Assembly (NCBI GenBank): GCA_031270325.1
Contig: JAISXW010000011.1
Span: forward strand, 1-64,000
Source: Streptococcaceae bacterium
GTDB taxonomy: Bacteria > Bacillota > Bacilli > Lactobacillales > Streptococcaceae
DNA: 64,000 nt
Direction of reading: 5' to 3'
Of this stretch, positions 19,275 through 64,000 are shown piece by piece; the stretch's first letter is position 1, and each line of letters begins with the position of its first letter. Position numbers and translations under genes: made by a program. Under the pieces are notes generated by a model that saw only the letters and a list, made by a program, of their open reading frames with translations, did no database searches and was not told the DNA's origin.

Positions 19275-19733
19275 ATGAAGATTGAAAAGACGAATAGTCC
19301 GGTAGTAATCGCCAACTTACTTGAAATAGTCCAAACCAAACACCATGAGCTGTTGCCAGATGTTTTTAAACCGTTTGACTTTGATAGCTTCAAGTCAGAA
19401 GCTGAAAAAACGCTAGAAGAGTCAGGACAAACTTTTTATGTCGCCACGATTGAGGGGCAATATGCTGGCATTATCTGGCTGCATGAGCTACCTGAAAAAG
19501 ACAATCTATCAACGTATGCTCGGCAGACACTTAAAATCGAAGCGCTGGCTGTCTTGCCAGAATTTCAAGGCATGGGCATCGGAACAGAGTTATTAAACTA
19601 TGCTGAGCAAGTTGCGAAAGCACAGCAGATCGAACGCTTGCTACTCGCCAACTGGCTTGTCAATGATGTTGCCACTTTTTATCAGGACAAAGGGTATCAG
19701 ACATTTTTAAGCTATCAAGAAAAATGGTTGTAG
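19275..19733 (+). CDS. GNAT family N-acetyltransferase
   Basis: LPEFQGMGIGTELLNYAEQVAK motif. Confidence 0.85.
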   Translation: MKIEKTNSPVVIANLLEIVQTKHHELLPDVFKPFDFDSFKSEAEKTLEESGQTFYVATIEGQYAGIIWLHELPEKDNLSTYARQTLKIEALAVLPEFQGMGIGTELLNYAEQVAKAQQIERLLLANWLVNDVATFYQDKGYQTFLSYQEKWL

Positions 19734-19787
19734 GAACGAGAGACCTCAGTAAACTTAATTTGATAAGTCGGTGGGAGCTTGAAACAA

Positions 19788-19820
19788 ACAGTTGGGTGCA
19801 ATGTCATCCAACTGTTTTTC
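19788..19820 (+). terminator. Intrinsic terminator
   Basis: ACAGTTGG...CCAACTGT followed by TTTTT. Confidence 0.8.
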
Positions 19821-19924
19821 TTGTATCTCATCATGGTGGTGTTTTGGAACTAGGTTGCGATAGTTCGGAGGTAGGATGAGTCTGTTTAGAGATAGCTCGA
19901 GGGGGTTCTGAGTAGCAAAGAGCA

Positions 19925-20764
19925 AGTTCCGAACACGGAAGTCGGAGTTAAAACTAGGAAATTCGGAGTTCAGAATAGGAAAGCCGGAGTTCAGAATAGG
20001 AAAGCCGGAGTTCAGAATAGCAAATTCGGAGTTAGGAATAGCAAATTCGGAGTTCAGAATAGCAAATTCGGGGTTCAGAATAGGAAATTCGGAGTTCGGA
20101 ATAGGAAATTCGGAGTTCAGAATAGCAAATTCGGAGTTCAGAATAGGAAATTCGGAGTTCAGAATAGCAAATTCGGGGTTCGGAATAGCAAATTCGGAGT
20201 TCAGAATAGGAAATTCGGGGTTCAGAATAGGAAATTCGGAGTTCAGAATAGCAAATTCGGGGTTAGGAATAGGAAATTCGGAGTTCAGAATAGCAAATTC
20301 GGAGTTCAGAATAGGAAATTCGAAGTTAAAACTAGCAACGAGCGAGTTCCGAACTCCAACTTTCTAGTTCCGGACTCGGACTTTCTGGTTCCGAACTCCA
20401 ACTTTCTAGTTCCGGACTCGGACTTTCTAGTTCCGAACTCCAACTTTCTAGTTCCGGACTTCGACTTTCTAGTTCTGAACTCCAACTTTCTAGTTCCGGA
20501 CTTCGACTTTCTAGTTCTGAACTCCAACTTTCTAGTTCCGGACTCGGACTTTCTGGTTCTGAACTCCAACTTTCTAGTTCCGGACTCGGACTTTCTAGTT
20601 CCGAACTCCAACTTTCTAGTTCCGGACTTCGACTTTCTAGTTCCGGACTCGAACTTTTCAGTTCCGAACTTTGACTTTTTAGTTCTGGACTAGAACTTTT
20701 CAGTTCCGAACTTCGACTTCCTAGTTCCGGACTAGAACTTTTCAGTTCCGAACTAGAAAGCGCA
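19925..20764. repeat. Intergenic array B: 40 x 21-bp units, unit orientation inverting at about 20345
   Basis: agttcagaatagcaaattcgg-type units to 20344, then agttccgaactccaactttct / agttccggactcggactttct; exact 21-bp phase confirmed at 20324, 20345, 20534, 20744. Confidence 0.95.
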
Positions 20765-20880: not shown

Positions 20881-20909
20881 TTGAAAAAGTGCGAAAACTA
20901 AGCTAAAAT
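20881..20909 (+). promoter_or_regulatory. Putative aro operon promoter
   Basis: TTGAAA - 17 bp - TAAAAT just upstream of aroE. Confidence 0.6.
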
Positions 20910-20915
20910 AAGGAT

Positions 20916-21734
20916 ATGGAAATTAACGGTTATACAAGATTAGCGGCGGTGGTCGCAAAGCCAATCAAGCATTCGCTCTCTCCCTTGATACATAACCTAG
21001 CTTTTGAGCAGATCGGAGAAAACGGTGCTTATCTGGCATTTGAAGTATCGGAAGCCGATCTCAAATCAGTGATTGACATGATTATCCCCCTCGACATGTA
21101 CGGTATGAACTTGTCAATGCCATATAAAGAAGCAGCTGTTGCCTATATGGCTGACTTATCCGAAGTTGCCAAACTAACGGGTGCGATTAATACCATCGTC
21201 AACCGCAATGGCAGGCTTTTTGGGACGTCAACTGATGGTGCCGGCTTTTTTAAATCACTCCCACAGTTTACCGTGGCGGGAAGTGAGATAACTGTGATTG
21301 GTGCCGGTGGTGCGGCACGTGCGATTATTGCCGAGGCGGCACTTCAGGGCGCTAGTCGGATCACGGTCTATAATCGCACCTATCGGCCAGAGCTATTTGC
21401 CCATTATCCTGGGGATATCCAGTTTAAGCCTTTGACAGCACTCAAAGCAGTGACTGGAGATTTATTGGTCAATACGACCAGTGTCGGCATGGGCGATCAA
21501 CAGCTGCCGATTGCGGCTGACCTGAAACTGCCCCCAGACATGCTAGTAGCTGATATCATCTATCAACCGCTAGAAACACCTTTCCTAAAATTTGCGCGCT
21601 CACAGGGCAATCAAACAGTCAATGGCTTAGGCATGCTTGTCTATCAAGCGGCGGAAAGCTTTAAACTCTGGACGGGACAAGAGATGCCAGTCGACATGAT
21701 TTTATCGAAATTAGCAGAAAAGGTTGAGGGGTAA
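20916..21734 (+). CDS. aroE: Shikimate dehydrogenase
   Basis: KPIKHSLSPLIHN, NLSMPYK, GAGGAARAI motifs. Confidence 0.95.
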   Translation: MEINGYTRLAAVVAKPIKHSLSPLIHNLAFEQIGENGAYLAFEVSEADLKSVIDMIIPLDMYGMNLSMPYKEAAVAYMADLSEVAKLTGAINTIVNRNGRLFGTSTDGAGFFKSLPQFTVAGSEITVIGAGGAARAIIAEAALQGASRITVYNRTYRPELFAHYPGDIQFKPLTALKAVTGDLLVNTTSVGMGDQQLPIAADLKLPPDMLVADIIYQPLETPFLKFARSQGNQTVNGLGMLVYQAAESFKLWTGQEMPVDMILSKLAEKVEG

Positions 21735-27436: not shown

Positions 27437-27453
27437 GCCCCAACCCATTACTG

Positions 27454-27550
27454 AAAAGGACAAGTCTTTTTATCGAAAAGGACAAGTCGTTTTACTCAAA
27501 AGGACAAGTCGTTTTAGCCAAAAGGACAAGTCCTTTTATCGAAAAGGATA
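27454..27550. repeat. Intergenic array C: four full units plus one partial of a 22-bp palindromic repeat between tyrA and aroA
   Basis: AAAAGGAC-AA-GTCCTTTT-like units; GGA at 27458, 27480, 27502, 27524, 27546. Confidence 0.9.
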
Positions 27551-29646: not shown

Positions 29647-29785
29647 TTGACAATAATTTAATTAACTGATAGGATAGTAAGTATAGAAATTTGATTCAAT
29701 CAAACCTGTTATGATTAAAACAAATTTCGCTCATCAACTAGGGTGCTTGCCGAGATTGACTCCGAGCACTCTAGTTTTTTTCGTT
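29647..29785 (+). ncRNA. Candidate orphan small transcript of about 100 nt
   Basis: TTGACA-17-TAGGAT promoter (29647-29675); strong terminator AACTAGGGTGCT...AGCACTCTAGTTTTTTT (29736-29783); no convincing RBS/ORF between. Confidence 0.45.
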
Positions 29786-30847: not shown

Positions 30848-31624
30848 AGTTCCGAGTACGGGCGTCTGACTTTTGGATAGCAATGATCGAGTTCCGAACT
30901 AGGACTTCGGAGTTCAAACTAGCAAAGTCCTAGTTCGGAATAGGAACTTCGGAGTTCAAACTAGCAAAGTCTGAGTTCAGAATAGGAACTTCGGAGTTCA
31001 GGATAGCAAATTCCGAGTTCAGAATAGGAACTTCGGAGTTCGGAATAGCAAGTTCGGAGTTCAAACTAGCAAATTCGGAGTTCGGAATAGCAAATTCTGA
31101 GTTCGGAATAGCAAATTCTGAGTTCAGAATAGGAAAGTCTGAGTTCGGAATAGCAAGTTCCGAGTTCAGAATAGGAAAGTCGGAGTTCAAAATAGGAAAG
31201 TCGGAGTTTAGAATAGCAAGTTCCGAGTTCGGAATAGCAAGTTCCGAATTCAGAATAGGAAAGTCGGAGTTCATAATAGCAAGTTCGGAGTTCAGAATAG
31301 GAACTTTGGAGTTCAAACTAGCAAAGTCCGAGTTCCGAACTAGAAAGTCCTAGTTCAGAATAGCAAAGTTTTAGTTCGGAACCAGAAAGTCGGAGTCCAG
31401 AACCAGAAAGTCGGAGTCCAGAACTAGAAAATCGTAGTTCAGAACCAGAAATTCCTAGTTCGGAACTAGAAAGTTGTAGTTCAGAACTAGAAAGTCGGAG
31501 TCCAGAACTAGAAAATCGGAGTTCCGAACCAGAAATTCCTAGTTTGGAACCAGAAAGTTGTAGTTCAGAACCATAAAGTCGTAGTCCGGAACTAGAAAGC
31601 TCGAATTCCGAACTACTTCATGCT
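30848..31624. repeat. Intergenic array D: 37 x 21-bp units, same family as array B
   Basis: agttcagaataggaaagtcgg / agttcagaactagaaagtcgg units; phase confirmed at 30848, 30890, 31562, 31583, 31604. Confidence 0.95.
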
Positions 31625-44419: not shown

Positions 44420-45154
44420 ATCGAGGACTAAAAAAGTGAGCTCGAGTTTGTTTTGGATAAGCTCGAGCTATAAAAAAGTGAGCTCGAGTTTGTTTTGGAT
44501 AAGCTCGAGCTATAAAAAAGTGAGCTCGAGTTCGTTTTGCCTAAGCTCGAGCTATAAAAAAGTAAGCTCGAGTTTGTTTTGGATAAGCTCGAGTAGTAAA
44601 AAAGTGAGCTCGAGTTTGTTTTGCCTAAGCTCGAGCTATAAAAAAGTAAACTCGAGTTTGTTTTGACCAAGCTCGAGCTATAAAAAAGTAAACTCGAGTT
44701 TGTTTTGGATAAGCTCGAGCTATAAAAAAGTAAACTCGAGTTTGTTTTGGATAAGCTCGAGCTATAAAAAAGTGAGCTCGAGTTTGTTTTGGATAAGCTC
44801 GAGCTATAAAAAAGTGAGCTCGAGTTCGTTTTGAATAAGCTCGAGTAGTAAAAAAGTGAGCTCGAGTTTGTTTTGGATAAGCTCGAGTTATAAAAAAGTA
44901 AACTCGAGTTTGTTTTGGATAAGCTCGAGTTATAAAAAAGTAAGCTCGAGCCTGTTTTGACTAAGCTCGAGTTATAAAAAAGTAAACTCGAGTTTGTTTT
45001 GGATAAGCTCGAGCTATAAAAAAGTAAACTCGAGTTTGTTTTGACCAAGCTCGAGTTATAAAAAAGTAAGCTCGAGTTCATTTTGCCTAAGCTCGAGTTA
45101 TAAAAAAGTAAGCCCGAGCTCGTTTTGCCCAAGCCTGAGCTTGTTCTGGATAGG
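44420..45154. repeat. Intergenic array E: about 35 x 21-bp half-units (42-bp higher-order unit) centred on CTCGAG
   Basis: gtgagctcgagtttgttttgg + ataagctcgagctataaaaaa; CTCGAG at 44441, 44462, 44483 ... 45071, 45092 exactly every 21 bp. Confidence 0.95.
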
Positions 45155-63739: not shown

Positions 63740-63846
63740 TACGATACGATGAAGACTAAGAGTGCAACACGCTGTCACTGTATGACGGCGTGTTTTTGTT
63801 TGAACCAATCGAGGCGCTAACGTTTAAACCAAAAATATCAAGCGTG

Positions 63847-64000
63847 GTCAAAAAAGAGTGGTCGTTGGTCAAAAAAGAGTCGGCGTTGGTCAAAAAAGAG
63901 TGTCTGTCGAGTAAAAAAGATGTGCCGTCTGGAAAAAAAGAGTGATCGTCATGTAAAAAAGATGCGCCGTCGGATAAAAAATGGTCATCTTTTATCAAGC
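63847..64000. repeat. Array F: at least 7 x 21-bp units, truncated by the window end
   Basis: gtcaaaaaagagtggtcgttg-type units at 63847, 63868, 63889, 63910, 63931, 63952, 63973. Confidence 0.88.

Follow-up and report, generated by a model that had tools for sequence, protein, structure and literature searches.

Array B occupies the GNAT-aroE intergenic spacer

The window (the whole stretch of 64,000 nucleotides that was analysed) belongs to a Lactococcus (Pseudolactococcus-like) MAG of 1.47 Mb in 40 contigs that is 70.6% complete and whose aroE is 73-76% identical to those of L. chungangensis, L. laudensis, L. raffinolactis, L. reticulitermitis, L. insecticola and L. hodotermopsidis. A tandem array (array B) takes up the spacer that separates aroE from a GNAT acetyltransferase gene inside a 144-kb contig, and a second array of the same family lies further along the window:

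19275-19733, + strand: GNAT acetyltransferase gene, left neighbour (Pfam PF00583, E 8e-16)
19786-19817, + strand: terminator-like hairpin of the GNAT gene, a 13-bp stem followed by TTC-TT; such matches are no commoner than in shuffles, but the stem is long
19841-19924, no strand: four degenerate units in the phase of array B, with centres 19867, 19888 and 19909 in phase and the fourth, at 19841, placed by eye
19925-20323, + strand: left block of L-type units (consensus AGTTCAGAATAGGAAATTCGG), slots 0-18, of which slots 0 and 1 are edge units
20324-20344, no strand: junction unit AGTTAAAACTAGCAACGAGCG; similar units border the L blocks at 30889-31615
20345-20764, - strand: right block of R-type units in opposite polarity, AGTTCCGAACTCCAACTTTCT and AGTTCCGGACTCGGACTTTCT alternating to give a 42-bp order
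20916-21734, + strand: aroE (shikimate dehydrogenase; Pfam PF08501, E 2e-24), right neighbour, with which a conserved gene run begins
30889-31615, + strand: second array of the array B family in the window, with L and R blocks in the same polarity

As assembled, array B consists of 40 slots of exactly 21 bp between 19925 and 20764, and slicing at 19925+21k confirms the 840 bp without net indels that a sequence-only reading had described. Tandem Repeats Finder (TRF) reports two abutting arrays with 0% indels, the left one at 19942-20327 (period 21, 89% match, score 590) and the right one at 20345-20754, for which a 42-bp unit is the best description (93% match, against 79% at period 21). Divergent edge or junction units occupy slots 0, 1, 19 and 39; leftward of the array, degenerate units continue in the same 21-bp phase to about 19841. 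Slot 20, at 20345, is exactly where the unit type changes, and the switch brings no net indel, so the slicing also verifies that the register is kept where polarity flips, as had been proposed. The last unit of the left block is the special unit AGTTAAAACTAGCAACGAGCG, which precedes the palindromic AGTTCCGAACT, and once the right consensus is reverse-complemented and rotated, 15 of its 21 positions agree with the left consensus, a level that shuffled units do not attain (99th percentile 13, maximum 14). The head-to-head polarity and its switch at AGTTCnGAACT are borne out; the right units, previously described as reverse-complement-like, do have the opposite polarity, but the two halves are distinct subtypes (L, AGTTC[AG]GAATAG[GC]AAA; R, AGTTC[AG]GAACTAGAAAG) and not plain inverses. 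The 42-bp higher-order period noted earlier for the right half is real and confined to it, as identity at unit distance 2 gives z = 5.4 on the right versus 0.0 on the left. The observation as such is confirmed, and the interpretation first attached to it is partly supported.

In the relatives, aroE has different upstream neighbours at 58-327 bp and no array there. A promoter-like match beside the window's aroE (20881-20909) is no better than chance and was not counted as evidence, no promoter-like match lies inside array B, and the spacer appears untranscribed. Could the array instead encode a repetitive peptide, 21 bp being seven codons? Open frames of ~100 aa do run through parts of some 21-bp arrays; however, no frame spans both halves of array B, its left units are interrupted by a stop in one frame and lack a start codon in the remaining ones, and a sister class of arrays has period 22, which is not a multiple of three, so that we find a coding origin scarcely credible.

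The same blocks recur at unlinked loci in different order and polarity

The AGTTC family, to which array B belongs, occurs at at least seven further places in the MAG. Its units can be sorted into L, R and junction types, and blocks of these types reappear in an order and polarity that differ among loci: array B is L+ R-, the C14 locus read in reverse has the same order, 30889-31615 and C21 are L+ R+, and C23 is R+ L+. The C14 junction CCGAGTTCGGAACTCGG is a perfect palindrome, again of the AGTTCnGAACT kind. At all seven main loci a single 21-bp register is held throughout, across block borders, flips and decayed edges alike, with 18.5% substitutions relative to the consensus and no net phase change in the cores; a rank test of this phase overstates the p-value, as part of its slots overlap with the core and ties at a score of zero are given rank 1. 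Neighbours of the family include phosphoglucose isomerase, thioredoxin, transketolase and enolase genes (Pfam), those within the window being GNAT and aroE, a PRK-type kinase and a GDSL lipase.

These loci also bear on whether the assembler made the unit number, the order or the flip. The MAG is fragmented into 40 contigs, several of which begin or end in homogeneous 21/22-bp arrays, showing that repeats limit the assembly. Yet the units of array B differ from one another, the array is interior to its 144-kb contig, and the same block types are found at seven loci on six contigs; an artefact is therefore highly improbable.

Variation is concentrated in particular columns of the unit

Aligning 98 L units from the seven unlinked loci, we found columns 2, 6, 7, 8, 12, 16, 18 and 19, which played no part in the definition of the type, to be identical in 97-98 of the 98. 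These eight columns are never polymorphic within any locus, while columns 0, 3, 10 and 17 are polymorphic in 5-6 of the seven. Such clustering of variation by column was matched in none of 20,000 permutations, although the common descent of the units makes permutation p-values overstate independence. Assortment of the variable columns is nearly free, with 22 haplotypes among 92 units, which argues against a recent spread of few master units. Variable columns 3, 10 and 17 are spaced by 7 bp (p = 0.04 for such spacing, to which we give modest weight), and self-similarity of the family at 7 and 14 bp is 0.42-0.46 against a mean of 0.25, with no WATCACW consensus.

A second array class has a period of 22 bp, for example at 27453-27548 of the window, L035:7981-8499 and L071:1501-1844, and its main family, AA(n4)CCATGG(n4)TT, is present at about 40 places in the MAG. 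Among 196 units, the AA and TT at symmetric places are kept in 94-98%, and the spacer columns use all four bases; CCATGG served to collect the units, AA and TT did not. A dyad of this kind with hypervariable spacers is typical of operator-like sites read by a dimer. An apparent 'anti-covariation' across this dyad (columns 0/21 and 5/16) turned out to stem from mixed unit orientation and was not used.

Arrays with 21- and 22-bp periods are dispersed through the genome

A census of 406 kb in 21 stretches (28% of the MAG) yielded 62 arrays, 37 of period 21 and 25 of period 22, which together make up 13.6 kb or 3.4% of the sampled DNA, a density that is somewhat inflated since the presence of arrays was the reason for choosing five of the 21 stretches, and the 62 include a few short calls of two copies. 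The arrays fall into about 20 unit families that share only the period, and nearly all long intergenic arrays in the MAG have period 21 or 22. In the window, for instance, the arrays at 1938-2125, 44429-45127 and 63845-63981 have period 21/42 and units of the AGAGAAAAGTTTCTCT, AAAAAGTAAGCTCGAG and GGTCAAAAAAGAG types, unrelated to those of array B; a single 22-bp step in the last of them shows that not every array holds its phase absolutely. The arrays are intergenic, the orientations of flanking gene pairs are near background, and 21-bp arrays lie at least 116 bp from start codons and at least 74 bp from stop codons, with a terminator-like site between gene end and array at 15 of the 22 gene ends that face one. 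Similarity in dimer order (z > 2 at unit distance 2) is seen in 75% of 32 long arrays and identity decays with distance in several of them; array centres are homogeneous and edges decayed. That array B belongs to a genome-wide, species-specific population of 21/22-bp arrays was out of reach for the sequence-only reading and is the actual finding.

Several ends of contigs C4, C8, C15, C21 and C23 lie inside near-identical 21/22-bp arrays (e.g. TTCTATTATTTGTAGAACTCG), so that the arrays are probably more numerous and longer in reality. Neither a common A-tract curvature (AA/TT phasing at half the unit length is not in excess across 22 arrays) nor a universal palindromicity of the units (seen in some families only, with a 'core' score that overlooks even palindromes) emerged as a shared property. 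The MAG also contains perfect simple-sequence repeats, of the kind that serves phase variation: (CGTT)17 at L028:9782-9849, (CGTT)10 at L029:8994-9033, (GAAAGAAGT)6 at L038:1-55, (CAACC)17 at L038:6436-6520, (GACA)11 at L038:8292-8337, (TCTGC)12 at L042:1-60 and (GAAC)11 at L044:8339-8383, the two CGTT tracts being upstream of paralogous glycine-rich-domain or surface-type genes.

The AGTTC family is absent from all 11 congeners examined; about 247 further genomes of the taxonomic family yielded a single 31-bp match and nothing else, and the repeat forms no array in 399 other genomes of the order, where one further match reads as a coding repeat; the weak matches in G022 and G454 are this 31-bp match and the apparent coding repeat, and were rejected as family members. 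Nor did 533 kb of congeneric and 331 kb of other Lactobacillales DNA hold comparable 21/22-bp arrays, the rare period-21/22 calls having ~2 copies. An origin from phage or plasmid was discarded, with no phage match and a single plasmid match (in Ralstonia, see below), and no description of such arrays was found in the literature searched.

Dispersal by a transposase or a similar enzyme, as REP/BIME palindromes are dispersed by RAYTs, would fit the recurrence of the AGTTC family with its block and junction types at at least seven unlinked places, that of the 22-bp family at about 40, and the partly palindromic nature of many units. However, array length, order and polarity are different at every site, an unsystematic look revealed no common flanking sequence or target duplication, and the 70.6% complete MAG gave no match to a Y1 transposase (PF01797), a reverse transcriptase or an MmeI-type enzyme. 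We consider such mobility unlikely.

The predicted hairpin is not a conserved feature

The sequence-only reading had also proposed that array B could form a long imperfect hairpin, and RNA folding does predict one on both strands (MFE z = -10.9 and -14.4 versus 20 shuffles), but the structure is not conserved, as an L/R head-to-head junction exists at only two of the seven family loci (array B and C14) and the others keep one polarity. With five of seven loci lacking this arrangement, selection for a hairpin is not supported, and it is more likely a by-product of in-register inversion than its purpose. What is conserved is the two-helical-turn phase, the near-invariant columns across unlinked loci and the dyad of the 22-bp family, not the hairpin.

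The strong folds of array B, together with a mean fold z of about -1.9 across arrays, might point to transcribed arrays that work as a long hairpin or as tandem small hairpins (terminator, source of double-stranded RNA or regulatory RNA). Against this stand the scarcity of head-to-head order, the terminator-like hairpin upstream of array B with no promoter-like match inside it, and unit families that fold no better than shuffles, and we judge a role at the RNA level very unlikely. Array B has no Rfam match; the only one in the window is a 23S-methyl RNA motif (RF01065, 79 bits) at 29684-29781. A terminator function was dismissed since the arrays are mostly located beyond existing terminator-like sites. 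For the hairpin nuclease SbcC, the MAG and 11 congeneric genomes gave weak matches only, none near the family cut-off; its loss was rejected as the cause of the arrays because congeners equally without a convincing homologue leave the species restriction unexplained, though its lack may be a permissive background that tolerates long inverted repeats.

Arrays of recognition sites or a bacterial satellite

Phase, polarity blocks, dimer order, family dispersal, species restriction and column-specific constraint are direct observations, and two accounts of them have to be weighed. According to the first, which we tentatively favour at slightly less than an even chance, array B is a tandem array of sequence-specific recognition sites. 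The second, its main rival, sees non-functional minisatellites that expanded in one lineage by slippage and unequal exchange and were homogenised within and between loci, the exact phase arising as whole units are copied and misaligned copies recombine less; we hold this to be a serious possibility, if on the doubtful side.

Satellite-like multiplication is favoured by the dimer order, the decay of identity with distance, the homogeneous centres and decayed edges, the polymorphisms common to several loci, the confinement to one species, the roughly 20 unrelated unit families and the placement in spacers away from gene starts. The arrays are indeed tandem, non-coding repeats with homogenisation and higher-order periods, but site-specific constraint, which should be absent from a satellite, is present: neutral drift does not predict the very uneven column diversity with the same columns invariant at seven loci, nor the dyad-symmetric constraint with saturated spacers in the 22-bp family, nor a common 21/22 period in unrelated sequences. 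The same contrast of invariant and variable columns, with free assortment, the 22-bp-family dyad, an exact phase at the seven main loci with their substitutions and the near-exclusive 21- or 22-bp period of long intergenic arrays, suggests binding sites. Counting against them, about 20 families with only the period in common would need several putative binding proteins, variants common to several loci and homogenised centres indicate unit exchange, itself a source of invariant columns, and one array has a 22-bp step. Constrained sites and satellite-like multiplication can both hold.

If the arrays are binding sites, the putative binder would most likely be a dimeric or small modular DNA-binding protein, inferred to read the constrained columns, and the exact two-turn (21 bp) spacing would place bound proteins on one DNA face, where they could contact each other. 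Growth by duplication of single units and of unit pairs would generate the 42-bp order, and recombination between copies of the AGTTCnGAACT core could flip polarity. Because this core is self-reverse-complementary and its position within the unit does not change, inverting the segment between two cores leaves all others in register; an in-register flip requires both breakpoints at equivalent places within the unit, from which we infer, on the sequence pattern, the palindrome recombination step. Our best guess for a role, by analogy to plasmid centromere or iteron arrays, is that bound arrays may organise or mark chromosome regions.

A broader proposal, which we regard as rather unlikely as a whole, is that the genome-wide two-turn arrays of this one lineage would be chromosomal docking arrays for cognate proteins, a functional analogue of satellite DNA whose polarity blocks and 42-bp order would come from in-register palindrome recombination. 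Intergenic DNA in bacteria is usually lean, and one would not expect large arrays of diverse sequence that have just a two-turn period in common. Should proteins bind them, the arrays would be a natural model of how phased sites affect the shape of a bacterial chromosome; should none do so, the arrays would amount to a clear bacterial case of satellite-like DNA, with the congeners as empty controls.

Comparison with known repeat systems

Plasmid iteron arrays, such as the 22-bp iterons of R6K and the 22-bp repeats of lactococcal theta plasmids, are tandem sites at two helical turns. The arrays described here resemble them in this spacing, with an exact 21-bp phase in array B, but differ in adjoining no rep gene or origin, in numbering dozens per genome and in their mixed polarity; nor is an AT-rich origin seen, array GC content being 0.40-0.45 versus 0.43 for the window. 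Bacterial VNTRs or minisatellites and REP/BIME elements are, like these arrays, dispersed, partly homogenised tandem or palindromic intergenic repeats; unlike them, the MAG has many unrelated families with one exact period and in-register polarity blocks, and no RAYT-type enzyme was found. Eukaryotic satellite DNA has higher-order repeats, homogeneous centres, decayed edges and lineage-specific families, all of which are paralleled here by dimer order, array centres, edges and family distribution, whereas the shortness of the arrays (less than 1 kb), their presence in many spacers of a small bacterial genome and the strong column constraint set the present case apart.

In the pSM19035 centromere, 7-bp sites follow one another directly in either orientation, and every one of them is the target of a ribbon-helix-helix dimer (PMC9499535). 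What the AGTTC family may share with this parS, to which the RHH protein omega binds, is a row of short abutting sites, direct as well as inverted, with unbroken phase, together with a 7-bp self-similarity; its heptads differ from WATCACW and from each other, and its arrays reach a far greater length (about 120 heptads), lie on the chromosome and occur at many loci. We therefore use pSM19035 parS as an analogy for how mixed polarity may be tolerated and claim no membership.

The only PLSDB record that matches array B is the Ralstonia wenshanensis megaplasmid p56D2 (CP076412.1), which has an intergenic 42-bp array at 905016-905301; array and tail (L085:3001-3540, equal to CP076412.1 905016-905555) have the core AGTTCTGAACTCC. 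Like array B, it has a period of 2x21, a AGTTCTGAACTCCA core, 18 of the 21 bases of one unit (counted by hand), 7-bp self-similarity and a degenerate in-phase tail; unlike array B, it belongs to a different phylum and is the only long 21-bp-phase array in 49 kb. The likeness may reflect chance (among many arrays) or convergence, and the p56D2 array hints at a 21-bp phase as a recurrent solution.
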